The position numbers and the translations under genes were made by a program. A model generated the notes under the pieces. The model did not search any database. It was not told the DNA's origin and saw nothing but the letters and a program-made list of their open reading frames with translations. From a virus, in the IMG/VR virus record IMGVR_UViG_3300017989_000179, positions 1 through 44,431 of that record: a DNA stretch of 44,431 nucleotides, one strand, 5' to 3'. Of the stretch, positions 2,051 through 32,386 are shown piece after piece; positions within the stretch are counted from its first letter, which is position 1; each line of letters starts with the position of its first letter.

Positions 2051-2713
2051 ATGTCAGATAAAAATGATAAAATTTTTGATGATATTGATAAGTTTTTACA
2101 ACATGGATTATATTTAACAACAAGAACTATATTTATAGAACCAGAAGAAGATTCTGAAGACGGTGATGCTGAAATAACATCACAATCGGCTATTAATACA
2201 ATAAAAAAAATACATATATTAGATAATTATAGAGTTGAAGATTCAGAACATGCCGAACTGACAAATTTATCTCCAGAATCTAAAGATGGTATGATTAATA
2301 TTTTTCTTAATAGTCCTGGTGGTTCTGTTATTGATGGTTTAGCAATTTATGACGCTATAAAAGCTTGTAAAAATTATGTACGTTGTTATGTCTATGGTGC
2401 CGCTGATTCAATTGCTAGCATTATACTTCAAGCAGCTGATGATCGAGTGATCTCAGAAAATAGCAGAATTATGATTCATAATGGTCTTACTCATTATGGT
2501 AGTGATAATGTAAAAAATATCGATTTATGGCAATCTTATACAAAAAAACATGATGAAATTTGTTATGGAATTTATCTAAATAAAATTAAAGAAAAACATC
2601 CAAATTATCGAAAACAGGATCTAAAACGAAAAATGGAAAATGATATGATATTTCATGGACAAGAGGCTATAGATTTTGGTCTTGCTGATAGATTAGTAAA
2701 GCGAGGTGAATAG
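2051..2713 (+). CDS. ClpP-fold serine protease, cytoplasmic
   Basis: A 220-aa ClpP/SppA-superfamily peptidase. NSPGGSV (residues 87-93) is the oxyanion/strand motif. The expected triad is S120 (GAADSIAS), H143 (MIHNG) and D198 (MENDMIF), followed by the usual EAIDFGLADRL end. There is no signal peptide. Phage ClpP-like enzymes usually mature the prohead and sit beside portal and capsid genes; this one lies with early genes on the other strand, so prohead protease is possible but not shown by context. Residues 61-77 (RVEDSEHAELTNLSPES), between the first helix and the NSPGGSV strand, are encoded by DNA identical to a piece of the Hint domain gene near 11.6 kb and look like a recent in-frame insertion. 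AAGGAG precedes the ATG. Confidence 0.9.
   Translation: MSDKNDKIFDDIDKFLQHGLYLTTRTIFIEPEEDSEDGDAEITSQSAINTIKKIHILDNYRVEDSEHAELTNLSPESKDGMINIFLNSPGGSVIDGLAIYDAIKACKNYVRCYVYGAADSIASIILQAADDRVISENSRIMIHNGLTHYGSDNVKNIDLWQSYTKKHDEICYGIYLNKIKEKHPNYRKQDLKRKMENDMIFHGQEAIDFGLADRLVKRGE
2231..2282 (+). repeat. 52-bp perfect inverted duplication, copy 1 (inside the ClpP-like gene)
   Basis: These 52 bases are identical to the reverse complement of 11582-11633. Both copies are read in the same frame in their own genes, giving RVEDSEHAELTNLSPES. In ClpP-fold proteins this position is a variable loop before the NSPGGSV strand, so the Hint gene is the likelier original home. Confidence 0.97.
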
Positions 2714-3051
2714 TGAGTACTAAACCGCATATATCAAAAACAGGAAGTCTAAGATTAAATGAAGGTAAACTGCCCATGCATCTAGTTCCACCTTCTACAT
2801 TAAAAGCCTTGGCTTCTGTTCTTCAATATGGAGCCAACAAATATTCTGAAAGAAATTGGGAAAAAGGAGCAAATTATTCAGTCCCTTATGCTAGTTTAAT
2901 GCGCCATTTAATGGCATTTTGGTCTGGAGAAACATTTGATCCTGAGAGTAAATTACCTCATACTTATCACATACTAATGAATGCAGCTATGTTAGTAGAA
3001 TATGAGCAACAAAAAGAGAACTTTGATGACAGACCAACAAATAGAAAGTAG
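2713..3051 (+). CDS. DUF5664 / dATP-dGTP diphosphohydrolase N-terminal-type protein
   Basis: A 112-aa protein with the pattern of the DUF5664 family: basic N-terminus with LRLNEGKLPMHLVPP, then LQYGANKYSERNWEKG, then SLMRHLMAFWSGETFDPESKLPH and HILMNAAMLVEY. The E, H and D residues in the helical core match the metal-binding, MazG-like all-alpha scaffold. Family members include phage (d)NTP pyrophosphohydrolases, some linked to modified-base synthesis (MazZ-type). It probably acts on a purine dNTP, near the dUTPase in the same operon. It starts with GTG overlapping the upstream TAG by one base, with GAGGTG just upstream. Activity and substrate are inferred from family only. Confidence 0.78.
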   Translation: MSTKPHISKTGSLRLNEGKLPMHLVPPSTLKALASVLQYGANKYSERNWEKGANYSVPYASLMRHLMAFWSGETFDPESKLPHTYHILMNAAMLVEYEQQKENFDDRPTNRK

Positions 3052-3229
3052 ATTTGGATACATGTGTCGAGTTGATTTTCTTCATGAATTAGAATCAGCT
3101 TCTGGAGGTATCTATGTATATAAAAACATTAATGATGTGAAGAAACATAGAAAATGCACTAATGAGTGTGGTATTGTTAAAGTAAAAATAACAGAAATAA
3201 AAGAAGGTGATTTACATGAAAAAAAATAA
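3026..3229 (+). CDS. small phage protein, 67 aa
   Basis: The product (MTDQQIESRFGYMCRVDFLHEL...) has two CxxC-like cysteines far apart (YMCRV and KCTNECGIVKV) and a beta-rich C-terminal half (IVKVKITEIKEGDL). I chose ATG 3026, preceded by AGAGA, over the in-frame ATG at 3002; both lie inside the DUF5664 gene end. It overlaps the next gene by 14 nt, so the run is tightly coupled. The family was not recognised. Confidence 0.6.
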   Translation: MTDQQIESRFGYMCRVDFLHELESASGGIYVYKNINDVKKHRKCTNECGIVKVKITEIKEGDLHEKK

Positions 3230-3536
3230 ATTTAATGTTGAAGATGTTGTTTTAGTGTATAAAAACACTCCAACATTTAAAGATGGAGCTATTTGTCAGG
3301 TTATTGATCGAGATCCAAATGACGATAGTTATTCCGTGGCTGATTTAAGAGATATTGGGAAAGCTGATCGAGATATTGGTATTATCTTAAATAGATATGC
3401 AAAATGGGTAAAACCTGAGAATATGAAAAAACTATATTTTGAGCCTAAAAAAAATTATACTAGATACTTAATTGGACTATTAGCCATTGAGACTTTCTTA
3501 TTGTTTGGAATATCTATTGCTTTTTATGTACTATAA
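3216..3536 (+). CDS. single-span membrane protein with N-terminal beta-barrel-like domain, 106 aa
   Basis: Residues about 4-70 are beta-rich and resemble a small SH3-like barrel (EDVVLVYKNTPTFKDGAICQVIDRDPNDDSYSV read as separate strands). Residues about 84-106 (YLIGLLAIETFLLFGISIAF) form a C-terminal membrane anchor, so the soluble part is probably tail-anchored and cytoplasmic. ATG 3216 follows AAGGTG at a normal distance and is preferred to the ATG at 3207. No family function was recognised. Confidence 0.68.
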   Translation: MKKNKFNVEDVVLVYKNTPTFKDGAICQVIDRDPNDDSYSVADLRDIGKADRDIGIILNRYAKWVKPENMKKLYFEPKKNYTRYLIGLLAIETFLLFGISIAFYVL

Positions 3537-3545
3537 GAGAAAGAT

Positions 3546-3995
3546 ATGGATAAAAAATTTAAAGGAACCATCATTAATTCTCTTCGAAAACTATCTTATA
3601 GTTATCCTGCTCGAAATAATGCCAAAAAACAACAAAAGGTAGCCCCAGCCACTTTTGAATGTCAGCATTGTGGAATTTGGATTTATGAAGGTAGCAAAGA
3701 CTTAGAAAAACATAAGGAGTTAATTTCTTTAAAAAAGAAAATTCCTAAAAATGGGATAATCAAAGATAAGAGTAATATTGATCACATAGATCCAATTATT
3801 CCACTTGAAGGTTTTCAAAAGAAAACTTGGGATTGGCATGAGTATATAGAAAATATGTTTTGTAAAGAAGAAGGATTTCAAGTTTTATGCAAATCATGTC
3901 ATAAAAAGAAAACTGACAAAGAAAATCAAATACGTCTAAAAAATAGACAAAAAAACTTGACAAATACACAAAAAACAAGTAAAGTCAAAAAATAA
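3546..3995 (+). CDS. HNH endonuclease
   Basis: A 149-aa HNH nuclease. The zinc-binding and catalytic pattern is complete: C39-x2-C42 (CQHC), N78-I-D79-H80-I-D with catalytic H80, then C115-x2-C118-H119 (LCKSCHKKKT) and the Lys/Glu tail usual in phage HNH proteins. Lys-rich ends would help DNA binding. It may be a free-standing homing endonuclease, or an HNH protein working with the terminase; its distance from the terminase genes favours the former. It starts 9 nt after the previous stop with AGAGAAAG upstream. Confidence 0.85.
   Translation: MDKKFKGTIINSLRKLSYSYPARNNAKKQQKVAPATFECQHCGIWIYEGSKDLEKHKELISLKKKIPKNGIIKDKSNIDHIDPIIPLEGFQKKTWDWHEYIENMFCKEEGFQVLCKSCHKKKTDKENQIRLKNRQKNLTNTQKTSKVKK
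3957..3985 (+). promoter_or_regulatory. candidate sigma70 promoter for the secreted protease gene
   Basis: TTGACA at 3957-3962, a 17-bp spacer, then TAAAGT (4 of 6 matches) at 3980-3985, inside the HNH gene end and about 30 nt before the ATG at 4017. The -35 is perfect but the -10 is weak. Confidence 0.35.
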
Positions 3996-4016
3996 TACAA
4001 ACAGGAGACTCATTTT

Positions 4017-4778
4017 ATGAAGCTATTAGCAGTAATTATTTTTACATTTAGCATGTGTTTTGCCCATGCTAAAAGTATTACTTTAAGAAAAAATAACACA
4101 GTTGTAATGAATGAAGCATTTAATGCATCAAGTGTAGCCAAAGTTCAACAACAACTTTTATTTCTAGCATTGAAGACTAAAAAAGATATATACTTAGTTT
4201 TAAATACTCCTGGGGGATCAGTTTCAGCTGGACAAGAGTTGATTCATTTTGCAAATAATCTACCCAACAAAGTTCACACTATTACTGTTTTTGCTGCCAG
4301 TATGGGTTATCTAACTGCACAACACTTAGGTAAACGTTATATAGTTCCACATGGTGCTTTCATGTCTCATAGAGCTAGTATTTCGGGTTTATCTGGACAA
4401 GTTCCTGGAGAAGCTAATAGTAGGCTCAAATATATTAGTCAACAAGTTAAAGAGCTATCGATTAATACAGCCAAAAGAGTGGGTGTTTCATATAAATCAT
4501 ATATGTCTTCAATTTATAATGAACTTTGGTTAACAGCAAATGAAGCAGTTAGACTAAATCACGCAGATGAAGTTGTTAATGTTAAATGTGATAAATCTCT
4601 TTCAAAAACTCACATTAAAAATATTAGAACAGTTTTTGGAACATATAATGTAGAATTTTCTAATTGTCCAACTATAAGTGGACCAATAAAAATTCATGCC
4701 AAAGGTAGTAAGGTAAGGTTACATATCAAAAAGGCACTCAATAAAATGAATAGAAAAGCATTTGGTTTTACATACTAA
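4017..4778 (+). CDS. secreted ClpP/SppA-fold serine protease
   Basis: A 253-aa protein with a classic signal peptide: basic MK, hydrophobic LLAVIIFTFSMCF, then AHA-K giving a likely signal peptidase I cut after residue 18. The mature part is ClpP/SppA-like: NTPGGSV (63-69), nucleophile S95 in AASMGYL, and H118 in FMSHRA. Where ClpP carries its catalytic Asp, this protein has IYNELWL, so N168 may replace it, as in serine proteases that use a different third residue or a Ser-Lys type dyad. The C-terminus has a Cys pair and a basic tail. It would act in the periplasm or outside the cell. Good AGGAG site; the stop overlaps the next start (TAATG). Unusual in a phage. Confidence 0.85.
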   Translation: MKLLAVIIFTFSMCFAHAKSITLRKNNTVVMNEAFNASSVAKVQQQLLFLALKTKKDIYLVLNTPGGSVSAGQELIHFANNLPNKVHTITVFAASMGYLTAQHLGKRYIVPHGAFMSHRASISGLSGQVPGEANSRLKYISQQVKELSINTAKRVGVSYKSYMSSIYNELWLTANEAVRLNHADEVVNVKCDKSLSKTHIKNIRTVFGTYNVEFSNCPTISGPIKIHAKGSKVRLHIKKALNKMNRKAFGFTY

Positions 4779-5179
4779 TGATAGATTTAAAAGAACTAGA
4801 AAAAATAATTGAAATCGAGCAGGAGGCTCTTAAAAAGAAAGCTCAAAATGAGCAATCTGATAATCCTTCTGCTCCTATAAAACGTCAGAACAGGGAAGTT
4901 CTTTCGTTTATTAGAAAAACAGGTTTATCTCCAGGTGATAATAAAGTACCAAATTATGTATTATACTATCACTTTATGAAATGGTCTAATGCCAGAAGAT
5001 GGAATAGACTTTGGGGAAAAGAAGAATTTTTTCGAACCTTTAAACAACATTTTGAACAAAAAAGATCAGGAAATCAAAGATTTTATTTAATCAATGATGC
5101 TCTTGATTTATCTGATGAAATTTATGAAAAAGCAAAAAAATATGACCAAAAATATCAAAAAAGAAAACAAAAGATCTAG
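4778..5179 (+). CDS. conserved phage protein, possible winged-helix domain, 133 aa
   Basis: The N-terminal third is a charged helix (LKELEKIIEIEQEALKKKAQ). Residues about 45-105 carry VLYYHFMKWS, EEFFRTFKQHF and RFYLIND, which recalls the small winged-helix domain in D5-type primase/helicase C-termini (short LYxxFxxW signature, then a recognition helix and a beta hairpin). I infer nucleic-acid binding, at modest confidence. The ATG overlaps the upstream stop, and the end overlaps the next gene by 38 nt. Confidence 0.6.
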   Translation: MIDLKELEKIIEIEQEALKKKAQNEQSDNPSAPIKRQNREVLSFIRKTGLSPGDNKVPNYVLYYHFMKWSNARRWNRLWGKEEFFRTFKQHFEQKRSGNQRFYLINDALDLSDEIYEKAKKYDQKYQKRKQKI

Positions 5180-5870
5180 AACAAAATATCCAGCTTTAGA
5201 CAAAGGTGTAAATTTAAGTTCTCGAAAAGATTATATTGAACCGGATTATATTAATGGGGTTTATGATAAAGATGGTAATCAAGTTATTAGACCTATGACT
5301 GAAAAAGAAAAAGCGTGGTTAAATCAATATTATGAAGAAACAATTGTTACAAATTTTTATCATGATAAAGAATTAAAAAATTTAAATCAATTAAAAAAAT
5401 CAATTATTGAAGATGAAACTGTAAAATGGTTAATGGATGTAGTAAAAGTTTTAAAAAAGGATAACAACCCTGATAAAAAAAGAATTCGAGAATTAAAAGA
5501 AATAATTAAATTAACAAAAAAACAAAATGAAGAATTATACGCCGATGATCTATATTTAATTGAAGAAGAATTAAAAAAAGCTAGAAAAGAAAAACTTTTA
5601 TATCCAGATAAAGAAGATCATAAACAATTTTATACCGAAAATAATGCTAGAAATAATTGCATTTTTAATAAATCTAGAATTACTAATAGATTAATACACT
5701 TAGATATAGAAGATTATGATAATTTACTTTTAGATAAAATTAAACATCTTGATGTAGAAAATGCCATTATTCATGAAATAGAACATGAAATTCACGAGGA
5801 ACAAGAAAAAAGAATTGAAAACATTTTAAAAGATGTTAAAAAAATTATTAAAAAGAAATCCAAATCTTAA
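5142..5870 (+). CDS. conserved phage protein with Asn-rich NNARN motif, 242 aa
   Basis: The N-terminal half reads as a conserved phage pattern: KYPALDKGVN, RKDYIEPDYINGVYD, and EKEKAWLNQYYEET. The middle is a long charged helical region. The C-terminal part has TENNARNNCIFNKSR, where related phage proteins have a similar NNARNR segment, and ends in a basic helix. The role is unknown; it may be an early DNA-transaction protein, by position only. I chose ATG 5142 because the conserved pattern starts just after it; in-frame ATGs at 5094 and 5124 exist with no better ribosome site. It overlaps the convergent XhlA-like gene by 23 bp. Confidence 0.65.
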   Translation: MTKNIKKENKRSRTKYPALDKGVNLSSRKDYIEPDYINGVYDKDGNQVIRPMTEKEKAWLNQYYEETIVTNFYHDKELKNLNQLKKSIIEDETVKWLMDVVKVLKKDNNPDKKRIRELKEIIKLTKKQNEELYADDLYLIEEELKKARKEKLLYPDKEDHKQFYTENNARNNCIFNKSRITNRLIHLDIEDYDNLLLDKIKHLDVENAIIHEIEHEIHEEQEKRIENILKDVKKIIKKKSKS

Positions 5871-6180
5871 CAATCCCTCCAATAATACCCACAAGAATTG
5901 AAGGTATACCAAGTCTTATTCCCCATGCTTTTAAACTTTCAAGTCTTCTTCTTTTTCTTTCCTTTTCAAACTTAAACTCATCAATAATAGGCAACAATTG
6001 GGCTATAATTTTATCATCACCAGCTACATGATTTTTAACTGATTCAGTATGACTTATCATATGACTTTTTAGATCTTCGATATTATGGTTGGTAATCTTT
6101 TGTTCCGCCTTAACCTCAGATAGATCGTCTTTAATTTCATCAACTCTACTCTCTAATCGAGAATACCTAATCTCATCCAT
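5848..6180 (-). CDS. XhlA-like coiled-coil membrane protein (possible lysis accessory)
   Basis: A 110-aa protein: residues about 5-75 form an acidic/basic coiled coil (LESRVDEIKDDLSEVKAEQK), then a positive stretch (KERKRRRLESLKAW) and one C-terminal membrane helix (IPSILVGIIGGIVKIWISF). This order matches hemolysin XhlA/BhlA-type phage proteins that sit in the inner membrane near holin/endolysin functions. Positive charges before the helix predict an N-in topology. It is the last gene of the leftward module, 12 nt after the 664-aa protein gene. The lysis role is inferred. Confidence 0.6.
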   Translation of the reverse strand: MDEIRYSRLESRVDEIKDDLSEVKAEQKITNHNIEDLKSHMISHTESVKNHVAGDDKIIAQLLPIIDEFKFEKERKRRRLESLKAWGIRLGIPSILVGIIGGIVKIWISF

Positions 6181-6192
6181 TTCAACTCCTCC

Positions 6193-8187
6193 CTATTTTT
6201 TCTGCTTGATATCATCATACTCTTTCAATAATTGTCTAAATGCTGGTTGTTGAGATAAATTGTATTGTATTTGTGTTTTTTCTTGTTGATTATCAGTATT
6301 TTTATATTGTTCAAGTTGTTCTGCATATGCACTTGCACCTGGAATACCACTGTTTTCAAATTCTTGAATTAAATTTTCCATATATTTAGGATCATCAAAT
6401 TTATTTGAGGTTGTTACAGAGTCAACTGCAACTTTACCACTTTGAGTTCCTGCTTTACCTAAAGCAAATGGTGAGACAATTTCTCCAGCCTTATCAACAA
6501 ATCGACTTGCTTTTTCAGAAATCTTGGCTCTACCAAGAGGACCACTTCTTTTTAATAAAGCCCTTGATAAAGGTCTTGATGCTAGACCAGCAGCGGCTCC
6601 TACAACATTTCCAACTCCTGGTAATGCACTTCCAAGTAGTCCACCAGTTAAGGTTCGTGCGGCATAACTATACTCTCCAGCTCCTTTATCAAGTTCTCCC
6701 TGAAGTCTTCGAGCTTTTAGTAAGTCAGCCAAACTTTTATCATCTATTTTTTTTCCTCTAATTTCTTCTAGTTCATTTAGTAAATTTTCAACATCTACTT
6801 TTGATCTACCAGATAAATCTTCTTTACCAACTTCTTGAAGCTTTCTCATAAGTTTATCTTCACTTCCTTGAAGAACTTCATCATAATCAACTTGAATTCC
6901 TAGTTTTTTATCTAATTTATCAAGAAGATTATATCTATCTGATATTTCTTTAGCTGTTTTACGATAATTCTTTGGTGCAGCTTCCTTTAATATTTCAGAT
7001 AATTCATGATATGTTTCTCTTAATTGTTTTTTTACAGCACCTGGAGAATCCTTGGATATTCCTCTATATGCCCTTTTTCCTGTATCCTGAACAATTTTTT
7101 GAATATCTCTAAGAGATAAAAGTTCTCCTCCAAATTTATTCTGATCGTCAATAAGTTGTGTAATTTTTTGTAAGTGAGGGATTGCCGGATCATCAGCTGT
7201 ATTGACAATTTTTGCAATACGTTTTTCAAGACGATCTTTAATAGCCTCTTTTGCTATACTTTTTTCATCTGAAAGCATATCGGAAGCAGCTCTACCAAAT
7301 TTTTCAATATCTGATAAAACTTTTCTAGATTTATCCATAACAATTTCTTGAATTTCTGGATAATCTACAGCTTCTTTGATATCATCGGCTCTTTTAATTA
7401 TATCATCAATAGTTCCGCTTCTTAAACCAGAAAGAACTGATGCAACTTGTTTAGAGCCTTCTTTTAAACCTTGTCCTGCCTTTTTTAAAGCCTTTTTACT
7501 TAAATTAATACCAGAAGGTACAGCCAATGCTGTAGCAGCTCCCAGACCAGCTCCAACAGTTCCTTCCTTAGCTAATTCAATGGGATCTTCACTTTCTGAA
7601 TAACCAATAGCACTAGCTCCACCCATTTGTGCCCCAGATTTTGCTAATTCTTTTGCTTGTTCTTTTGCAGTTTTTTCTAATGTTTCTTGTGTTCCTTTTT
7701 TTAAAAACCTTTTAGCTATTTCTTTAGTACCTTTTGTAAGAAGACCTTTTGCTGCTGCCGCTCCTCCAGTTGCAACTGCCGGTCCTACCATTCCTGCTAT
7801 TTCTCCCGCTTGAAAAGCTCCTGGTTCATCTATTTTAGCTTGTTCAATGCGTTGTCTTTCTAAATCACGTCCTTGTTTATAAGCTTCACCAAGTTTATCA
7901 ACATCTAATCCAATAGGTTCTTGAAACTCTTGCTTTCCAAATTCTTGACCTAAGCCTTTTACACCAACTGCTTGACCTGCTGCCTCAAGTGCTCCTTTTA
8001 ATTCATCAGACAAACCAAGACTTAAATCTTGAAATCCACCAGCTAAAAATGCTTCTGTTGCAGAAGTTTTTTCATCCTCAGTGGGACTTTCAACTTGATC
8101 AAATTCAACACTTAAATCTACCTCTTGATCAAATGAATCACTTAAATCCTTTTCTTGATCGAAATCTTTGTCTAAATTATCAGCCAT
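6193..8187 (-). CDS. internal virion / DNA-ejection-type protein, 664 aa
   Basis: A long helical protein with an acidic N-terminus that repeats a short phrase (KDFDQEKDLSD, QEVDLSVEFDQ). Two Ala/Gly-rich hydrophobic segments follow, near residues 130-150 and 205-230, then a large helical core, and another hydrophobic Ala/Gly stretch around residue 530 (LLGSALPGVGNVVGAAAG). Such membrane-seeking segments in a large virion protein are typical of podovirus ejection proteins that form a channel across the cell envelope. It is the third of three large helical proteins at the end of the tail cluster, matching the usual place of internal core genes. The start overlaps the upstream stop (TAATG). Confidence 0.6.
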   Translation of the reverse strand: MADNLDKDFDQEKDLSDSFDQEVDLSVEFDQVESPTEDEKTSATEAFLAGGFQDLSLGLSDELKGALEAAGQAVGVKGLGQEFGKQEFQEPIGLDVDKLGEAYKQGRDLERQRIEQAKIDEPGAFQAGEIAGMVGPAVATGGAAAAKGLLTKGTKEIAKRFLKKGTQETLEKTAKEQAKELAKSGAQMGGASAIGYSESEDPIELAKEGTVGAGLGAATALAVPSGINLSKKALKKAGQGLKEGSKQVASVLSGLRSGTIDDIIKRADDIKEAVDYPEIQEIVMDKSRKVLSDIEKFGRAASDMLSDEKSIAKEAIKDRLEKRIAKIVNTADDPAIPHLQKITQLIDDQNKFGGELLSLRDIQKIVQDTGKRAYRGISKDSPGAVKKQLRETYHELSEILKEAAPKNYRKTAKEISDRYNLLDKLDKKLGIQVDYDEVLQGSEDKLMRKLQEVGKEDLSGRSKVDVENLLNELEEIRGKKIDDKSLADLLKARRLQGELDKGAGEYSYAARTLTGGLLGSALPGVGNVVGAAAGLASRPLSRALLKRSGPLGRAKISEKASRFVDKAGEIVSPFALGKAGTQSGKVAVDSVTTSNKFDDPKYMENLIQEFENSGIPGASAYAEQLEQYKNTDNQQEKTQIQYNLSQQPAFRQLLKEYDDIKQKK

Positions 8188-10649
8188 TATTGAACCCTTT
8201 CAAAGCGTGGATCACTTAGATATTTCTCAGCTTGTTCAACTGGAAGACTTTTAATCATTCCATCTTTTTTTCTTTTAACTTTTATTAACCTAGAATCAGA
8301 ACTAGCTTGTTTTTTTGTTTCATCTTCAGAGATAATAGTTTGTCCCAATAAGCCTCTAATTTTTTCATCAGCCATATTTGGAAAAGCTGTTTTCATACGA
8401 CCACTAGCATTATCATAAACTCTACTTGTATCATCTTTTAGTTTACCTCTTAAAAGTTTTAAGTTTGATTTAATGTCATTTAAAGTGTCTTTACTTAATT
8501 CACCTTTTGCACCTTTTGCATACCAATCTTTTAACTTTCTTCCCCAACTAGTTCCACCAACATAGCGAACAACATCAGTGTCTGTAAGAACTCCAACTTC
8601 TCCCATTGCCCTAGCAAGTTTTGTACCGAGTGCAGCAAGTGCAGCTTGATTGCCTTCACCAACTTGATCTAAAAGTCTATTAACACTTTCAAATTCCATT
8701 CCTTGTTCAACTGCTTTTTTATATCTAGGATCATCTTTTAGAAGATTTCGAGCGGCATTTAATTCATCTTTAGCTTGTAAACGAGCTTCTTTTCCTTTTC
8801 TTTCTTGTGCTCTAGCTTCTTGATCTTTTCTTTTTAAATCTTTTTCTTCTTTTGTGCGTTCCATTGATTGTTTTTGTAAGTCTAATTGTTCTTGTCTATA
8901 TTTAATCAATGCTTGTTCTTTATTTTTTGCTGAAGCCAATTGCCTAGCTTTCATTAATTTTTCTTCTAAATTACCTTGAAGAAGATCTCTTTTTATTGGC
9001 TGAAGAATGGCATTTTTGTTAGCAGCATCATAGTGTCCTAAAGAATCATCAATAACTCCAAGAAGATTAATAATCATATCTTTACGTCTTGCATCTTCAA
9101 GTTCTTCATCTCCAACTTGTTCTTCAACTTTAGGAGCATTAGGACTTTCAACTATTTCATTTGTTTTATCAACTTGTTGCGCCTCAATATCTCCTTTGAT
9201 ATCTTGAATTTCTTGTTTAGGAGATTGAATTTTCGTTGGTTCTCCAACACTCATCATTTGAGAATAATCTACTTCTTGTTGAGGAAAAGACATATTTACT
9301 TCGGGTTGATCTAAATTTGCAAGACTTTCAACAATATTATTTAAATCAAGTGGTTGGGCAATCCCTCCATCTTGATAATTTTGTAAGTTATTTAAAAGTC
9401 CTTCAAGATTTGAAGTATCCATAGGTAAACTAGCTTCTTGTGGAATTCTTTCAACGATCTGTTGATCTCCAAGATCTTCAGGTTGAGCCTCACCTCTGGC
9501 AATATCCATTAGTGTTTCTTGTTGCGCCTCATTTACTATAGCATTTCCATTGTCAACATTTTCATCTGCTCGACGTCTATCTGCTAATTCTTTTAACAAA
9601 TTATTAAACATATTTTGTTGATCAAGATTTAAAACCATTTCGCCATCATTGATTCTATCAGGTAATTCATCTCCAGCATAAGAATCAAGATTAGATTCGA
9701 TAATAGTACCTTGACCTCCAGCCTGATAATTCATTCCTTTCATTCCACCATCTCTAGCCATCATAGCAGCTCGAGCACCACCAATTAAAAGACCTCTAGT
9801 TCCAGCAGCTTCTTGCTGAGCTGCACTGGCTTGCTGAGCTGCACTTTGCATAGCTTGTTGTGCTTGATTACCAAGAGCACCAGTAACTCCCGTTGCTTTT
9901 GCTAATTGATTTTGAAAATTTTGTTGTAACAAACCTTTATTATACATTTCTTGTTGATTAGCAATACTTGCTCTTTGTTGAGCTTGTTGTTGTTTTGCAG
10001 CTGTATCTCTAGCGGCAACGGCAGCATTAAATTGTCTAATAGCATCACTAGCTTGTGCCTTTTGTGCATCTTGTGAAAATTGACGAGATCCCATTTGACT
10101 TGCCATTTGTCCTACTTGAGCCAATGCGTTCCTTCTTGCTGCAGCTTGCTGAGCTGCTAATTCTAAACCCTCTTGGGATGCACGTTGTGTTGCAGCTTGA
10201 GATGATCCAAGCTGAGCTGCTAATTGTGCTCCAGAATCTAATGCCCCTCTTTGAGCCATTTGTTGTAATATACTTGCTTGTCGAGCTTGTTCATCAGCCC
10301 CAATTTGACTTCTAAGAGCTTCAATTCTAGCTCTATCTTCAGCTGTAAATCCTTCTTCTCCAGCTTGTTGTAGAGCCGATAGAGCATCTAATTCTGCCTC
10401 TTGTAGTCTTGGATCTATTTGTATATCTTCAAATGCACTTGGTCCAAGTCTTTCTTCTAAAGATGAAAGAACTAATTCTGGTTGTTCTAAAACTATTTTT
10501 TGAGCTTCAACAGATGGAATTCCAAGTTTTTCTAACTCAAGAACCGCTCGTTGTTGTAAAGCATCAGCTTGTTGTCGTTCAGCAGCTCCTGCACTTGGAT
10601 CAGCGGTAAGTCCTAAAGAACCTGTTACCTTATTTACAATACTACCCAC
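8187..10649 (-). CDS. internal virion / ejection-type protein rich in Ala and Gln, 820 aa
   Basis: Residues about 20-290 are a Gln/Ala-rich helical, coiled-coil region with runs such as QQAAARR, AAQQASAAQQEAAG; at the DNA level this gives repeats of GCTGAGCTGC (for example near 9820-9850 and 10145-10215). A Gly-rich segment (RDGGMKGMNYQAGGQGT) and PDRINDGEMVLNLDQQN follow, a segment often seen in phage virion proteins. The middle is acidic and likely disordered; the C-terminal part returns to charged helices (KEEKDLKRKDQEARAQERK) and a compact domain with ARAMGEVGVLTDTDV. It probably travels in the capsid core. Assignment rests on size, composition and position, since no catalytic motif is seen. 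Confidence 0.6.
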   Translation of the reverse strand: MGSIVNKVTGSLGLTADPSAGAAERQQADALQQRAVLELEKLGIPSVEAQKIVLEQPELVLSSLEERLGPSAFEDIQIDPRLQEAELDALSALQQAGEEGFTAEDRARIEALRSQIGADEQARQASILQQMAQRGALDSGAQLAAQLGSSQAATQRASQEGLELAAQQAAARRNALAQVGQMASQMGSRQFSQDAQKAQASDAIRQFNAAVAARDTAAKQQQAQQRASIANQQEMYNKGLLQQNFQNQLAKATGVTGALGNQAQQAMQSAAQQASAAQQEAAGTRGLLIGGARAAMMARDGGMKGMNYQAGGQGTIIESNLDSYAGDELPDRINDGEMVLNLDQQNMFNNLLKELADRRRADENVDNGNAIVNEAQQETLMDIARGEAQPEDLGDQQIVERIPQEASLPMDTSNLEGLLNNLQNYQDGGIAQPLDLNNIVESLANLDQPEVNMSFPQQEVDYSQMMSVGEPTKIQSPKQEIQDIKGDIEAQQVDKTNEIVESPNAPKVEEQVGDEELEDARRKDMIINLLGVIDDSLGHYDAANKNAILQPIKRDLLQGNLEEKLMKARQLASAKNKEQALIKYRQEQLDLQKQSMERTKEEKDLKRKDQEARAQERKGKEARLQAKDELNAARNLLKDDPRYKKAVEQGMEFESVNRLLDQVGEGNQAALAALGTKLARAMGEVGVLTDTDVVRYVGGTSWGRKLKDWYAKGAKGELSKDTLNDIKSNLKLLRGKLKDDTSRVYDNASGRMKTAFPNMADEKIRGLLGQTIISEDETKKQASSDSRLIKVKRKKDGMIKSLPVEQAEKYLSDPRFERVQ

Positions 10650-10650
10650 T

Positions 10651-10980
10651 TTATAGCTCCTTTTGATAACAAATCATTGTATTCGTTTCTTTTATTTTTT
10701 TATAATCATTTAATAAAATATATTTATCACTTTGTTTCCAATTATTTGCATCTTTACAACTAAAACAAATAATTAGTTTACAACCAGAAAAATTAGCCAT
10801 TTCTTCAATTAATTTAGCATAGTTTTTACCAAATCCTAATTTTCTAAATTCTGGAAGAATAAATAAATCATTTACCTGAAAAATATCATCAGTAATTCTA
10901 TATGTAAAAAAGCCTACTTTATCTTCATATAATAATGCATCTTCTCTTTCAAGAATATATTGTTCATATTTATCCATCAC
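10651..10980 (-). CDS. GNAT-family acetyltransferase-like protein, 109 aa
   Basis: The central part carries a GNAT motif A: strand VNDLFILPEF, then RKLGFGKNYAKLIEEMA, where R-x-x-G-x-G/A binds the pyrophosphate of acetyl-CoA. The following strand (CKLIICFSC) and the last strand (TMICYQK) fit the rest of a minimal GNAT fold, though the N-terminal strands are short. Substrate unknown. It overlaps the next upstream GNAT-like gene by 11 bp, so they are expressed together, between two ejection-type protein genes. MMDKY offers two adjacent start ATGs. Confidence 0.72.
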   Translation of the reverse strand: MMDKYEQYILEREDALLYEDKVGFFTYRITDDIFQVNDLFILPEFRKLGFGKNYAKLIEEMANFSGCKLIICFSCKDANNWKQSDKYILLNDYKKIKETNTMICYQKEL

Positions 10981-11401
10981 TTAAAAACTCTGCTGTTTTA
11001 TTTCCAAAAGTTTTACAACAAATCCAGGCATCACCTGGATCAGTAATAATTGCACCTTTCTCTTGAAATCTTTTTGCCATTGTTTCAACATCTGTTGAAT
11101 AATATAAATATTTTATACCCACTTCATCACATTCTTTAAAAATAAAGTCTAAAATTAGATCTGTGGCTTTTCTTCTGTCTTCTTTATTTGAATTTATATC
11201 CCCAATTGTGAATCCCATTTTTGCCATATTTGTTCCAATGGTTCTATAATAACTACTAAATACAATTGGTTTATTATTTTTTTCTACTATATAACTAAAT
11301 GGCGAAATAGCATCTCTATCCCACATAGTCCAGTCCCACTCTTGAAACCATTTTGATAACAAATCGAAATCTTTTTTATCATCATATTTTCGAATATTCA
11401 A
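10970..11401 (-). CDS. GNAT-like acetyltransferase, 143 aa, TTG start
   Basis: The sequence begins NIRKYDDKKDFDLLSKWFQEW, a typical GNAT first strand and helix, followed by strands SYIVEKNNKPIVFSSYY and MAKMGFTIGD, then KATDLILDFIFKECDEVG and KYLYYSTD with MAKRFQEKGA, the usual helix of the last GNAT half. The canonical acetyl-CoA RxxGxG loop is degenerate (NKEDRRKA). An ATG exists at 11455, but that start would overlap the Hint gene by 53 bp and add residues that do not fit. TTG at 11401 lies 1 nt past the Hint stop with AGGGAG six bases upstream, so I prefer it. Confidence 0.66.
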   Translation of the reverse strand: MNIRKYDDKKDFDLLSKWFQEWDWTMWDRDAISPFSYIVEKNNKPIVFSSYYRTIGTNMAKMGFTIGDINSNKEDRRKATDLILDFIFKECDEVGIKYLYYSTDVETMAKRFQEKGAIITDPGDAWICCKTFGNKTAEFLSDG

Positions 11402-11402
11402 A

Positions 11403-13721
11403 CTACTCTCCCTGAAGTTTATATTCTTCTTCCAATAACCAATTATTACGATCAATATTTGAATTTAAATTTTCAATTTTTTGATCTTCAGAAATCCATT
11501 CATCATCTGTTTCTTGAAAATCTGCTGCAATAAAATTATTAACAACCATTAAATGATTTTCTGTATTAAGAGGATAAACTATAGATTCTGGAGATAAATT
11601 TGTCAGTTCGGCATGTTCTGAATCTTCAACTCTTAGCCATTTTCCATTTTCAAATACAGCATGATATGAAGTAACAAAAGATCCTTTATATTTATAAATT
11701 TCACCATAAGCAATGGCTTTTCCAGTAGCTGTTACTTTACCACCTAAATATAGTGATTCTCCCAAATCGATATCCTCAATGTTTTTGATTGAACCGTCTT
11801 CCATTTTTACAGAAGTACCTTTCATAAAACAAAAAATACTTTTAACTACATTTTTAGCTTTTTCAGCCGCTCGCTTAGCTTCAGATGCAATATTACTAGC
11901 CACATTAACCGCCTCAGTCATACCACCTGTTGCAAGTCCGGCAATAACTCGATCAATATTTTCATTTCCTGTAATATTACCACCAACTGCACTAGCTATT
12001 TGTTCAGCTGTTTTTATAATATTTTCACCACTTTTGATTGTGTTTCCAACTAAATTAAAAGGATTTACTGTAAAAAGACTTTCTCCAGCAGCACCTAGAT
12101 TTTGTAAATCACTTCCAACTGCTCCTTGTAAATCAGGAGTAAGAGCTTGTTCAGTTCCAGTTAGAGCATCATCTGCTGAACTTAGTAATGCTCCAGTTGG
12201 ACCTCCACTAATTAATAATTGTTCAGGACTTAAACCTTCTTTCATGGTATCAGGTAGATTTAAAATTTCTTGACCAATAGCAGCTTGAGCCCCACCCAGA
12301 TCGACACCTGTATTTTGAGCTAATTTATCTTGAAAGTCACTTACCCCAAAAAGAGTTGCTGCCATAAAAGGATTTGCAGCTAATAAAGCAGTTTGAAATG
12401 CATTAATTGCTTCTTGTTTACCCGTAATTCCTTGTTCAGTAACATTTAAATCACCTCGATTCATTCGATCCAAAACGTCTTTTATAGCCGTTTCAGCATT
12501 GAATCTAAGTGCAGCTTGTGCCGTTGAATCTCCCAAACCTTCTTGTCCTACAAGTTTACTTAAGGCATCAAATCTAGCTCGATCTTCGGCACTAGCAATT
12601 GTTTGTCTATTGAAATTCTTAGGATCAATAACATCTAAATATTGCGAAAAATCAACTTCTTTAGGTACGCCACCTGTTGCTGTCAAAAAACCTTGAAGAG
12701 TTCCTTGAAGTCCTTCAGCAACACCAAGTTCGTCAAATTCTTCTTTGGTTAAAAATTGTCGTTTTTGTAATTTATTTAAAAGTTCTTGTCTTCGATCAGT
12801 TAATTTTTGAAGCTCAGTAGCGGCTTGTTGATCTAATTCTTGTCCCAAAGTTGTTCTAGCACCTTGCTCACCTAAAATACTTTGAGCAGCTTCACCCTCT
12901 CGACCAGTAAATTCAGACACATCCTTTTTTAATCCATAAACATCTTGAATTGCTTTTTTACGAGCTTGAGTTATACTATCAGCTAAACCACCAAGTTGTT
13001 GTTGAGTTCCTTGAACCATTTGTTGTGTAGCAGTTGGATCAGCACTTAAAATCAAAGAATCAACTGCCCTTTGACCTCTTGTATATGGTCTTCCACGTCC
13101 AGAAAATGTTTGTCTTAATAATTCTTCTCTTCCTTGTGCTCGACCAGCTTGACTAGATAATCTTTCTAGTGCTTTAGCTCTTGATCTTTGTTGAAGTAGA
13201 TCTACTGGTTGGGCAACATCAAATTGAGAACCGTTAGTAATTAATCCTTGAAATCTTTGAAAATCTTCATCAGATAACTCTCCAGAACCAGCCTTTTGAA
13301 TAGCTTCTTGAGTAAATTCGCGAGATTCTTGAAGACGACTTTGAGTTTGATCTAGATTTTGTTGAAGTTTATCTTGTTGTTTTTGAATTTGATTTTTTAT
13401 ATCTTGAGCTTGTTGTCCTACTTTTCCCGTAACAGCTCCAGAAATTCTTTCAGCAGCTGGTTTATTTGCACTGATATATTTACGAATATCAGTAAACATT
13501 CCCGAACCTTTTTGTTTACGTGTTCCTGTGGCAGGAGTTGATTGTGGAGCTACTTGGGAACCAATTTGAGGTTGACCTGCACTAATAGATACAGGTGTAC
13601 CTTGTCCCACTTGTTGTTCTTGATCTTCTTGGGATTGTTGTTGATTCAATTGGTCTTGTGTGGCAAGAGTGTTCATTCCAACTTCTTGTGAACCCTCTTC
13701 CTCCTCAGGTATAAATGCCAT
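11403..13721 (-). CDS. large virion protein with C-terminal Hint (intein-like) domain
   Basis: A 772-aa protein. Residues 1-75 are Gln-rich and probably disordered; 75-300 are helical with many Gln/Arg/Glu; 300-620 are mixed with Ala/Gly-rich helices. From C631 (FCFMKGTSV) to the end is a Hint fold: MEDGSIKNIEDIDLGE (block A), FVTSYHAVFENGKW (block B with the conserved His), VYPLNTENHLMVVN and an acidic tail (DFQETDDEW). There is no C-terminal His-Asn plus nucleophile, so it should self-cleave or cross-link rather than splice. The block at 11582-11633 is duplicated in the ClpP-like gene. A GGAG site lies 6 nt before the ATG, and a phage promoter at 13739-13757 is just upstream. Likely an ejection or tail-core protein. 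Confidence 0.72.
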   Translation of the reverse strand: MAFIPEEEEGSQEVGMNTLATQDQLNQQQSQEDQEQQVGQGTPVSISAGQPQIGSQVAPQSTPATGTRKQKGSGMFTDIRKYISANKPAAERISGAVTGKVGQQAQDIKNQIQKQQDKLQQNLDQTQSRLQESREFTQEAIQKAGSGELSDEDFQRFQGLITNGSQFDVAQPVDLLQQRSRAKALERLSSQAGRAQGREELLRQTFSGRGRPYTRGQRAVDSLILSADPTATQQMVQGTQQQLGGLADSITQARKKAIQDVYGLKKDVSEFTGREGEAAQSILGEQGARTTLGQELDQQAATELQKLTDRRQELLNKLQKRQFLTKEEFDELGVAEGLQGTLQGFLTATGGVPKEVDFSQYLDVIDPKNFNRQTIASAEDRARFDALSKLVGQEGLGDSTAQAALRFNAETAIKDVLDRMNRGDLNVTEQGITGKQEAINAFQTALLAANPFMAATLFGVSDFQDKLAQNTGVDLGGAQAAIGQEILNLPDTMKEGLSPEQLLISGGPTGALLSSADDALTGTEQALTPDLQGAVGSDLQNLGAAGESLFTVNPFNLVGNTIKSGENIIKTAEQIASAVGGNITGNENIDRVIAGLATGGMTEAVNVASNIASEAKRAAEKAKNVVKSIFCFMKGTSVKMEDGSIKNIEDIDLGESLYLGGKVTATGKAIAYGEIYKYKGSFVTSYHAVFENGKWLRVEDSEHAELTNLSPESIVYPLNTENHLMVVNNFIAADFQETDDEWISEDQKIENLNSNIDRNNWLLEEEYKLQGE
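11582..11633 (-). repeat. 52-bp perfect inverted duplication, copy 2 (inside the Hint domain)
   Basis: Reverse complement of 2231-2282 with no mismatch. In this gene the encoded RVEDSEHAELTNLSPES follows ENGKWL and precedes IVYPLNTENH, which fits the Hint pattern, so this is the probable source copy. Confidence 0.97.
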
Positions 13722-25722: not shown

Positions 25723-27675
25723 TTAAACACTAGTTGTTATAGCTCTAAATTTAATCGTGGCATCAACAAATCCAGCATAATTGGGTGTAGTATATGTTAT
25801 TTGTCCAGCTGATGTTATATCAATATCAACTAAACTATTATCACCAACTGCACTTTGAGAGATTTCCCAATCAGCACCTTTTTGTATTCCTTGAATTTCT
25901 CTTTCTTCATATAAATCACTAGTAGCATCAACCAAAATGGAGACAACTGCTTGAAAACTTCTAACTGTTCCATTTGAAAATGTAAACCCAGAAATATTAG
26001 CTGGAGTTGTTTGATTATTTACAAGAGTAAAACTTAATTCAGATATGTCTCCAGTACTACTTAATGCAATTCCACTTAAAAAATCTGCACGATTCATACT
26101 TTTTAATTGACCAGCACTATCATCATGTATCAAAACTAGATCGGCATTATCAACGCTTGTTTCTGAAGTTGTACCAGTTATATCAACCGTTAGCGTTCGA
26201 CTCGTTGTAATATCACCACCACCACTTAAACCAGAATCCACATTTGTATTAATATTTACACTACTATGATCTATATGTTCATTTGTAACAAAATTTTCTA
26301 AACTATCATGATCAATTTTGGTTTCATCTATTTGAATTTGAAGATCCTCATCTCCACCATCATTTAAAGTTGTAACTTCTAAAATATCAGAAGTATTTAC
26401 TCCTTCTGAAACAACTAATGCATCTTCTAGAAATTTTTCAGTTGTATCATTTGAAGAAACTTTAACTCTTTCATCGGCTAAGTTTAATGTTTGCCAAGAT
26501 GCTGTTGTTCCATTTGATTGTAATACTTGATCTGATGATCCTATTGGTAAACGAGCTGCATCTCCTGATCCATTTCCTAAAACTAAATCTCCCTCAGTGG
26601 TTATTACATCATCTTGTTTTCCAGTTTCTACAGAATCAACTCTAGCTTCAACTTCATCAATAGCCGCTTGAACTTGTGTTGCAGCTAATCCTGAAGTAGA
26701 ATTATCATAGTCAATTTGATTGGCATCATAGTCACTAGCTTGAGCAACAACAACCCCCACTCGTCCAAAAACACTTGTAACAGCATCTGTATTATCAGAT
26801 TTTTCCCAAATTTTACTATCATTTAAGATTACATAGTCTCCAACACCAAATGTAATTGATCCTGAACCAAGATCTTGAGTTCCTGCCACACTTACTCGAT
26901 AAACGTCTCCAATATTCTCATCAGGATTTCCAGCTCCATCAACAAGAGTTGGAGTATTTGTTGAAGCATCCCAAGTTCCTTTATATTGAAGAATGGAATT
27001 TGGAAGTTGAGCAACTGGGACTTTTCCTCCACTATCTAATGATGCATATCCATTTGCAATTCCTTTATTTGCAGTATCTTCTTTTAAATCTAATTCTGTT
27101 TGAATTTTATCAGCAGACCATAGATTTGTCGTAGTAGTAAGTGCATCATCCAATTCGCGATGTATTGATAGATCAGCAATATGTGTATCAATTGCAGAGT
27201 GACTATTAGTTCCAATATTTTGAAGTTGAGTATGATCTAGTGCTTGGGCAATATTTCCAATATCCGCTCTTTTAATATTATTAGAATCTTCTGAATCAGA
27301 AATTAATATTTCATCTAGTGAAACAGGAGAAGCTTTATCGGTTTCTCCAGCTATATTCACATCAAGAGTTCTGGAAGTATTTATACTTCCCCCACCACTT
27401 AAACCATCTCCTGCAATCACATCAACTGTTGTGTGATCTATGTGTTCATTTGATTCATAATTTAAAAGTAAGTTGTGATCAATCTGTGTTTGATCTACAT
27501 CAATTTCTAATGTTTCATTTCCTCCAGGATTTGTAACAGTTTTTGTTATTTTAGTTGATCCTACTGTAAGTTTTTCGTCTAAAAAACCTCTAGTTGAATC
27601 CGCTAAGGTAACATTAACTTTACCATCTCCCCCACTTGTTGATGAGGCATTTACGAACACATAATGATTTGCCAT
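25723..27675 (-). CDS. tail fibre protein, 650 aa
   Basis: Repetitive trimeric-fibre-like sequence. A block near residues 40-150 (KLTVGSTKITKTV ... HIDHTTVDVIAGDGLSGGGS ... ISDSEDSNNIKRAD) recurs near 410-540 (HIDHSSVNINTN, SGLSGGGDITTSRTLTVDIT, HDDSAGQLKSMNRADF). The middle has one YDNSTSGLAATQVQAAIDEV repeat. The last 100 residues (LVNNQTTPANISGFTF ... ISSAGQ-like ITYTT ... FRAITTSV) match the C-terminus of the 156-aa protein at 32.4-32.9 kb. Receptor binding likely lies in such C-terminal domains. This is the second largest fibre of the cluster. Confidence 0.72.
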   Translation of the reverse strand: MANHYVFVNASSTSGGDGKVNVTLADSTRGFLDEKLTVGSTKITKTVTNPGGNETLEIDVDQTQIDHNLLLNYESNEHIDHTTVDVIAGDGLSGGGSINTSRTLDVNIAGETDKASPVSLDEILISDSEDSNNIKRADIGNIAQALDHTQLQNIGTNSHSAIDTHIADLSIHRELDDALTTTTNLWSADKIQTELDLKEDTANKGIANGYASLDSGGKVPVAQLPNSILQYKGTWDASTNTPTLVDGAGNPDENIGDVYRVSVAGTQDLGSGSITFGVGDYVILNDSKIWEKSDNTDAVTSVFGRVGVVVAQASDYDANQIDYDNSTSGLAATQVQAAIDEVEARVDSVETGKQDDVITTEGDLVLGNGSGDAARLPIGSSDQVLQSNGTTASWQTLNLADERVKVSSNDTTEKFLEDALVVSEGVNTSDILEVTTLNDGGDEDLQIQIDETKIDHDSLENFVTNEHIDHSSVNINTNVDSGLSGGGDITTSRTLTVDITGTTSETSVDNADLVLIHDDSAGQLKSMNRADFLSGIALSSTGDISELSFTLVNNQTTPANISGFTFSNGTVRSFQAVVSILVDATSDLYEEREIQGIQKGADWEISQSAVGDNSLVDIDITSAGQITYTTPNYAGFVDATIKFRAITTSV

Positions 27676-29563: not shown

Positions 29564-32386
29564 TTATCTCAATTTAGTTACTGTTATTTGTGAATAAAGT
29601 TCATCCACACCATAGCTAATATTATCTCCAAGTCCATTTGTTGCTCTAGTTGTTGATACTCTATGTTGTAATTCAAAAGTTTTCGAAGATGTTATTATAA
29701 TTTCCCCTGAAACAAAAGAACGAGTTTGACTTAAGTCACTACTATTACATGATTCAGTAGTTCCAACTATTTCAGTTACACCATCAGTTATATTTTGAAT
29801 TCTTGCTTTATGTCCATTAATTCGAAAACCTGGAACTGTTCCTTCAATTCTATATTTACCCGGCTGTAGTGTAAATTGATTAGAACTTAGAGTGATAAAT
29901 GTTGTTGTTCCTTCTAGTGTATTTAGAGTTCGAGTATTAAAAGATCCTGAAACTGCACCTCCACCTGGCGTTCCTGAAGGTTTTAAATCTTTTAAATATG
30001 CAGTTGCTGGTAAAGCAGCGTTTACTGTATATTGTCTATCTGTGTATGTAAATTCAGCATAGTTTCTAGCATCATTTTGATCCAAAGCAATAGTATCACC
30101 CAAATCATTGCTCAAACGAATACTAATTGCTTCACCTTCTTGTATATAAAAAGTAGAAGTTATTTGCATATCTAGAGCAAAACTAGTATTATCACTTGAC
30201 ATAGTTTCATATCTTCTATCTGAAACTCTAACACCGTCAATCATAATTCCTAAATCAGCTGTTCCACCTAAACTAGGAGTTACACCACTATTTGATAAAA
30301 CTCCTGCTGTTACAGTAATATATCCAGCTCTTGGAGCAATATATCTAAATGTATTGGTATAAGTGGCATCATTTCCATTACCAGATCCGGTAACTAAACT
30401 ATCATCATCATGATCTAAAGTTGGGAAATCAAGAAAAACCGATGATCCATTTGTTATAGAAGCTGAATCAGAACTAGTATATCTAGTTGGAGCAAAATTT
30501 GTTGTACTTGTAATTAAAGAATCAGAATCAGCATATGCTGTAACATTTAAAGACAAAGCACCAGCATCATTTGGAACTCCCGATCCTGTTGCAAGAATAT
30601 TTATATAATCTCCTGCTTTTATTTTTAAAGATACTGTACCATCATTTTGAGTATTAGCTCCATATGCACCACCAGATCTTGCAACTTGTGAATCATTTAC
30701 TCTAAACGAATATTGTTCAGCTGCTGAAGTCATTTTTGTGTGTATTGTCACATCAACAACACAATCAACATTAGCCGTAAATCTTGTGTAGCTTGAAACG
30801 TTTGAAACTGTTAGAATATCATCTCCGGTTGATGTAAGATCAGATAAATCAAATTCAAGAGTTGTTCTGGTTAATAAATCAGCTCCTGTAGTTCCATCTG
30901 TACTTCTAATATCTTGAGATAATTGTGTTTTACTTAATTGAGTTACATCTGGAGTAATAACTATATCATCGACCAATAGTGTATCAGCTGCTGTTGACTC
31001 AAATTTCCAATATACTTGAGTTGTATTTGTTGGCAATCCAACAATGAATTCAAATGGTTTATAATCACCACTTCCTGAAATTGTTTCACTCATTAAATCT
31101 TGTGAATTAGTGACATCAAATAAACTAACTGTCCAATCTTCAGATATACTAGCTTGAAATTTAAAACCTAAAAATTGATTTCTTCTATATCCCAATGGAA
31201 CGTCTAAATTATCTCTTTGAACCGATTCAGAGGCTACAGTAGAGATAAATTTAAGAGCTTTATCTCCACGACCAACTTCTGAAGGAGTATCTGTAATTGA
31301 TAAAGTTCCACCAGAGGTTGAATAATCAGAAGTTTGAGCCGTTTCAAAACTTCCAAGAGGATCAAAATTAATCAACCCACCTTCACTTGAACCCAATGGA
31401 ACTAATTGCGTTCCATCATCAACCAATGCCTGTTGTTCATCTGTTGCATAAACAATTGTTGCTTCTTTTCTTGTAAGTGCATCTAAATTAGCTCTAGTAT
31501 CTTTTGGAATAGTAACTCTACTAGTATTTGAAGCGGTTCCTCCATCAATATCTTTATTCGTTAAAACTTGAGAATCTGAAGTACCAACTACATCTCCAGT
31601 TGTACCGTGAGCTGTAGTATCTGCAATGTGAACATCTAAATCTCCATCAACTTCATCAATAGCAGCTTGGACATCTGTAGCAGTTAATCCAGATGTTGCG
31701 TTATCATAGTCAACTTGATCGGCATCGTAATCTGAGGCAGCAGGAAGAACTGCACCCGTTCTACTATTAAAACTATTTACATATGTAGCACTTTCTATTG
31801 TATCAACTCTTCCTTCTACTTCATCTACAGCTCCTTGAACATCTGTGGCTGTAAGTCCTGATGTACTATTATCATAAGTAACTTGATCAGCATCATAATC
31901 CCCAGATTGAGCAGTTACAACTCCAGTACGACCTTCGAAGCTATTTACATATGTAGCACTTTCTATTGTATCAACTCTTCCTTCTACTTCATCAATTGCA
32001 TCTTGAACATTTGTAGCAGAAAGTCCTGAAGTAGAATTATCATAAGATATTTCAGATGCTTCATTTTGATTATCAGTAATTGTTTTTAATTCATCTAAGG
32101 CTGCTTGTGTATCTGTAGCAGTAAGTCCAGATGCACCATTATCATATTCAATGTCACTTGCATCGGCACTTATTGTATTATTTCCAGTGGCTGCTGTGGC
32201 ATCAATAGTTTTATTTTCGAGAGTTTGAGTACCATCCTCAGAGACAACTTCTCTCGTTGCGCTATCATCTTGATATTCAACTTTTTTAGAAGTATCATTG
32301 TATCTTACTTCACCTTCTTCAGTAATTGCACTTGTATCTGGATCAAGCTGAATTCCTTTTGGAAAGCGTCTACGTTTGGTTGTCAT
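29564..32386 (-). CDS. major tail fibre protein, 940 aa
   Basis: The N-terminus (MTTKRRRFPKGIQLDPDTSA, EEGEVRYNDTSKKVEYQDD) is the usual virion-attachment part of phage fibres. Residues about 78-240 hold four copies of a repeat, e.g. YDNSTSGLTATDVQGAVDEV, each followed by a helix (EGRVDTIESA) and, in two copies, TYVNSF plus a beta stretch; the unit is 56 residues. Later domains include a Gly-rich/jelly-roll-like stretch with ATGSGVPNDAGALSLNV and a C-terminal domain with KYRIEGTVPGFRINGHKA. Trimeric fibre is expected. The repeats make this gene a hot spot for copy-number change. Confidence 0.75.
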   Translation of the reverse strand: MTTKRRRFPKGIQLDPDTSAITEEGEVRYNDTSKKVEYQDDSATREVVSEDGTQTLENKTIDATAATGNNTISADASDIEYDNGASGLTATDTQAALDELKTITDNQNEASEISYDNSTSGLSATNVQDAIDEVEGRVDTIESATYVNSFEGRTGVVTAQSGDYDADQVTYDNSTSGLTATDVQGAVDEVEGRVDTIESATYVNSFNSRTGAVLPAASDYDADQVDYDNATSGLTATDVQAAIDEVDGDLDVHIADTTAHGTTGDVVGTSDSQVLTNKDIDGGTASNTSRVTIPKDTRANLDALTRKEATIVYATDEQQALVDDGTQLVPLGSSEGGLINFDPLGSFETAQTSDYSTSGGTLSITDTPSEVGRGDKALKFISTVASESVQRDNLDVPLGYRRNQFLGFKFQASISEDWTVSLFDVTNSQDLMSETISGSGDYKPFEFIVGLPTNTTQVYWKFESTAADTLLVDDIVITPDVTQLSKTQLSQDIRSTDGTTGADLLTRTTLEFDLSDLTSTGDDILTVSNVSSYTRFTANVDCVVDVTIHTKMTSAAEQYSFRVNDSQVARSGGAYGANTQNDGTVSLKIKAGDYINILATGSGVPNDAGALSLNVTAYADSDSLITSTTNFAPTRYTSSDSASITNGSSVFLDFPTLDHDDDSLVTGSGNGNDATYTNTFRYIAPRAGYITVTAGVLSNSGVTPSLGGTADLGIMIDGVRVSDRRYETMSSDNTSFALDMQITSTFYIQEGEAISIRLSNDLGDTIALDQNDARNYAEFTYTDRQYTVNAALPATAYLKDLKPSGTPGGGAVSGSFNTRTLNTLEGTTTFITLSSNQFTLQPGKYRIEGTVPGFRINGHKARIQNITDGVTEIVGTTESCNSSDLSQTRSFVSGEIIITSSKTFELQHRVSTTRATNGLGDNISYGVDELYSQITVTKLR
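31773..31825 (-). repeat. 53-bp direct repeat, copy 1, in the fibre gene
   Basis: The 53 bases at 31773-31825 are identical to 31941-31993, spaced 168 bp (56 codons), and encode the DEVEGRVDTIESATYVNS part of two adjacent repeats. The exact match in an otherwise diverged repeat set suggests recent duplication or gene conversion. Confidence 0.9.
31941..31993 (-). repeat. 53-bp direct repeat, copy 2, in the fibre gene
   Basis: Identical to 31773-31825 (see that entry). The two flank a 168-bp unit, so a recombination between them would remove or add exactly 56 codons in frame. Confidence 0.9.

Follow-up and report, generated by a model that had tools for sequence, protein, structure and literature searches.

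The stretch of DNA analysed here (the window) covers positions 1 to 44,431 (44,431 bases) of IMG/VR record IMGVR_UViG_3300017989_000179, which is classed as linear and has a GC content of 32%. Because it carries a terminase gene, a portal gene and genes for a major head protein, tail proteins, a dUTPase and a DNA polymerase exonuclease subunit, the window is, judged by its gene content, that of a tailed phage. IMG/VR has another contig, IMGVR_UViG_3300017971_000536 (G001, the sister contig), that matches window positions 9773-44431; it shows 12 differences over these 34,659 bases and extends 1,438 bases past this match. A relative, G004, is mostly about 70-78% identical to the window at the DNA level, in the structural genes that they share. 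On the minus strand, the P22-like portal gene (35855-39001) is split by a 342-aa intein (residues 522-863) with Cys1, HN at its end, Thr at +1 and matches to Hom_end_hint and LAGLIDADG; the portal site is uninterrupted in G004 (L022) and L135. Diverged repeats of ~70-140 nt, common to two tail or tail-fibre genes, lie at 26648-26782 and 31647-32165, with a spacing of 168 nt in the second.

The ClpP-like protease and the Hint protein

The gene at 2051-2713 (plus strand) encodes a ClpP-like serine protease of 220 aa (Pfam CLP_protease, 1.3e-28; PHROG head maturation protease, 5.6e-37; Foldseek match to ClpP structures, 4e-14). Ser120 and His143 are invariant in the 12/12 sequences of the alignment, and Asp198 is presumably the third catalytic residue. 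The protein thus resembles ClpP and the phage ClpP-like head maturation proteases in its fold, its Ser and His and its family models, but differs from them in having 17 extra residues after helix A and before the next strand, and its gene adjoins replication rather than capsid genes. A search for a near-identical ClpP found only distant relatives, the nearest (L001) being about 40% identical over residues 1-180, and records nearest the window may be absent from those searched. A second ClpP-like protein, with a signal-peptide-like N terminus (Pfam, 7.7e-21), is encoded at 4017-4778 (plus strand); similar secreted proteins occur in L053, L045 and G005 (L016), and both kinds are present in L053 and G005. 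Between the two ClpP-like genes lies an HNH-endonuclease-like gene (3546-3995, plus strand).

The second gene of interest (11403-13721, minus strand) encodes a 772-aa protein with a C-terminal Hint-like domain (about 11403-11831), and from its position among structural genes this protein is probably virion-associated. A PHROG search gave no significant match, and comparison of the whole protein with named phages found none. The Pfam match to Hom_end_hint (8.2e-5, residues 631-657) scores 23.1 bits, below the family cut-off of 32.1; the domain is therefore called Hint on the strength of its N-terminal block and its relatives: a CF block at the N terminus of the domain and an H-V-x-E block are common to the window and to eight IMG/VR relatives besides G001. 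L125, from the same phage, was excluded from these eight, and L127 and L128 are near-identical to each other. Two small genes, one of them for a GNAT-like acetyltransferase, follow the Hint gene (10651-11455, minus strand), and the one at 10970-11455 overlaps its end.

A 52-bp inverted repeat shared by the two genes

Positions 11582-11633 are the reverse complement of positions 2231-2282 in 52/52 bases, and both copies are translated to RVEDSEHAELTNLSPES, each in the frame of its own gene. An earlier note on this DNA had reported the perfect inverted match and the same-frame translation and had excluded chance, and all of this stands. Its wording that the repeat joins the Hint domain to the protease has to be dropped, since the copies lie 9,299 bp apart, in separate genes that are encoded on opposite strands. 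The match ends abruptly on both sides in unrelated flanks, and a looser alignment extends it to 70 nt at 89% through scattered matches only. The 70 inverted 18-mer matches in the window are the 35 positions of this one pair, each counted twice, and there is therefore no other exact inverted match of at least 18 bp in the window. In 20 dinucleotide-preserving shuffles, the maximum length of such a match was 15-19 bp, and a chance match of 52 bp was rejected on this comparison. A survey of 90 fetched phage loci (1.06 Mb; 80 brought in via the exonuclease gene of this phage, two being the sister contig) found three direct exact repeats of at least 30 bp lying at least 500 bp apart and no inverted one of that length and distance; the loci are at most ~20 kb long, so that longer-range pairs would be missed. 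Among IMG/VR records, the exact 50-mer of the repeat was found in one other than the window, the sister contig, on which ground another phage as the donor was rejected.

In the Hint domain, the segment (11582-11633, minus strand) directly follows a conserved HAVFENGKW motif and, by alignment, is native. The eight relatives all align through it, with a G-x-W-x-RV motif followed by a short variable stretch and another conserved block. RV and RVxxS are each found in 8/8 relatives, RVxDS in 7/8 and RVEDS in 5/8, so that the segment begins, on this alignment, with conserved Hint sequence. The Hint gene is intact and in place, as G001 confirms with an identical 52-mer; G001 has no ClpP gene, its match stopping at window position 9773. 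G001 runs continuously through the Hint copy and so gives no support to the idea that the stretch separating the two copies is in truth inverted.

In the protease gene, the repeat match and the alignment delimit a 51-bp insert of 17 codons (2231-2281, plus strand; residues 61-77). We compared it with 28 ClpP relatives, namely 29 ClpP-like proteins minus the secreted-class L053_5328, L016 and L045, plus L134 and L135. The span from Leu57 to Asn87 has 10-19 residues in these relatives (14 in 23/28), against 30 in the window, or 13 when the 17 inserted residues are removed and the flanks joined. The inserted segment is absent from 28/28 relatives, all of them distant (the nearest about 40% identical), and a diverged form of the loop, which the earlier note had raised as a sign of an older origin, was likewise seen in none of them. 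Since a search for a near-identical phage contig without the insert found none, we infer the empty site from relatives at ~40% identity or less. In both the window protein and L001, helix A ends in HILDN and is followed by a strand with NxPGG, and the window protein is 11 residues longer between them. The earlier note's description, with Hint patterns in one copy and a ClpP loop at the other, is thus borne out by the eight Hint relatives and by the ClpP spans.

Scored against a profile of the 28 ClpP sequences, the native protein reaches 133.6 bits and the protein with 17 residues deleted from position 61 reaches 140.6; the gain is highest at starts 59-65, with the best at 65 (143.5 bits). As 39 of the 204 sliding 17-residue deletions exceed the native score, this test is support rather than proof. 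MAFFT alignment of the uncut protein placed part of the insert (AELTNLSPES) on the relatives' helix A, as did phmmer and tblastn for some of them, because AELTNLSPESKD by chance resembles the end of helix A. The placement therefore depends on L001 and on the structure model. An AlphaFold2 model (pLDDT 82), built from the MAFFT alignment that put the insert on helix A, has helix A at 44-59, a strand at 82-88 and its lowest confidence within the insert, with pLDDT below 50 at 64-70; a second, two-sequence model is poor (pLDDT 50.5) and agrees on where the helix ends and the strand starts. On the best reading of the models, the insert would occupy the turn that connects helix A to the strand after it and would lie clear of the catalytic core. 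The event, as the alignments present it, is a clean insertion of 17 codons at one site with no loop sequence replaced; the change to the protease loop suggested in the earlier note is thus upheld as an insertion and not a replacement.

Base 2282 (A) is common to donor and target, and the 51-bp insert together with A2282 makes up the 52-bp match; the length of 51 bp assumes a target that was in frame. Junction microhomology is by inspection at most 1 bp, which is expected by chance too, and no longer homology was found at either edge. The segment is free of stop codons in 3/6 frame and strand placements. Sharing the Hint frame is therefore no evidence for a selected peptide, and the shared frame that the earlier note had pointed out is weak evidence of design. 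The note's argument from the lack of any diverged base to a very recent event is also weak, as 0/52 differences bound divergence only to below 5.6% (95%). Set against the 70-78% identity to G004, this bound makes the insertion fairly recent relative to the phage family.

Origin of the protease insert

We consider it very probable, from the sequence comparisons, that the segment is a templated insertion, copied from the Hint gene and pasted into the ClpP gene by either polymerase switching or fragment capture. This direction follows from the segment being native in Hint relatives and extra in ClpP relatives; the reverse, with ClpP as donor and Hint as recipient, was rejected on the same counts (8/8 and 28/28). 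The template switch or recombination proposed in the earlier note is thereby supported and given a direction. A nascent or broken DNA end in the ClpP gene, arising during phage replication or break repair, would have been extended for ~51 nt on the Hint gene, on the opposite strand, at a distance of 9.3 kb or in a sister genome, after which synthesis would have resumed in the ClpP gene, leaving the donor copy intact. The altered product would owe its survival to an insert length divisible by three, to the lack of stops and to a location away from the catalytic core, in the turn that leads from helix A to the strand. The identity of the copies, a donor and a recipient, a clean insertion at one site and the retained catalytic Ser and His are the observed basis of this account, from which we infer a polymerase switch, a single event and a protease that still works.

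Within templated insertion, a fragment copied from the Hint gene may instead have been captured at a double-strand break in the ClpP gene by end joining, without a polymerase switch at a fork. The junction homology of ~1 bp fits this route, yeast break ends having 0-4 bp (as described in PMC11724301), and the HNH endonuclease (3546-3995) and the LAGLIDADG intein could be sources of a break. Break ends usually lose bases, however, whereas a loop of this length points to few lost bases or none. Capture is a somewhat unlikely route, although the sequence fits both. More doubtful is an artefact of the library or the assembly. Inverted chimeras are common in amplified DNA, and the protease copy is known from one assembly because the sister contig stops, at window position 9773, before the ClpP gene. 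Yet such an artefact would need two switches, after which the ClpP halves would have to meet at a structural turn with frame and register preserved. One false join at the repeat would have exchanged the flanks, yet G001 confirms those of the Hint copy, and those of the ClpP copy come from the same protein family. The assembly error that the earlier note allowed for is thus improbable, with the Hint copy secured by the sister contig and the protease copy lying beyond its end.

An equally improbable view is that the insert is a functional ClpP loop under selection, for instance one that alters unfoldase docking. Eight residues after the insert comes Phe85, aligned with the Tyr in the IFFYINSPGG of NmClpP, a residue that we take to be the same as Tyr63 of S. 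aureus ClpP. Tyr63 is placed at the unfoldase-binding H site in the account of S. aureus ClpP in PMC9035409. An effect of the insert on docking is on this alignment possible, but the loop is shared by 0/28 relatives, there is no divergence showing selection, and half of the segment's placements (3/6) are open anyway. The repeat might also be read as a working switch, in which recombination between the copies would flip 2231-11633 and give two in-frame chimeras. The shared frame speaks for this and nothing further does, and we regard it as highly improbable; the same holds for the predicted products, ClpP residues 1-77 with the Hint C terminus and the 772-aa protein with the catalytic part of ClpP. 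If it were true, the phage could alternate between its normal genes and a virion protein tagged with a protease. Less probable still is a small mobile element that inserts in frame into genes, like the Rickettsia palindromic elements: the segment is short and in frame in two unrelated genes, and such elements are published (PMC10969869), but the window holds two copies only, one of them ancestral Hint sequence, and the exact 50-mer recurs in a single IMG/VR record, the sister contig of the same phage.

Precedents and significance

Copying accidents of this kind are known. The closest precedent is the templated mutations of phage T4, in which, as summarised in PMC3016281 (citing Schultz, Carver and Drake 2006), a strand switch copies sequence elsewhere in the phage genome and then returns to its place. 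The T4 switch is guided by an imperfect repeat, whereas the window has 51 bp from an unrelated gene and ~1 bp in common at the junction, and no imperfect donor-target repeat of the T4 type is evident in the flanks. The templated and inverted insertions described at yeast breaks (PMC11724301) are likewise copied and pasted from distant donors, with inverted orientation possible; these are, however, experimental breaks in a eukaryote, with many foldbacks and captured fragments, as opposed to a natural phage variant kept in frame. The Rickettsia elements share with the window a short segment inserted in frame into protein genes, but are described as multi-copy families of ~150 bp (PMC10969869), in contrast to a single copy of ordinary gene sequence.

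In the templated insertion proposed here, both the donor and the recipient, two unrelated phage genes, are still readable, and the case shows how a protein can gain 17 residues in a single step. If reads confirm the protease copy, it would offer a natural case for testing the rate of such copying in environmental phages, and a test of how far ClpP tolerates an insertion beside its likely unfoldase-docking face.
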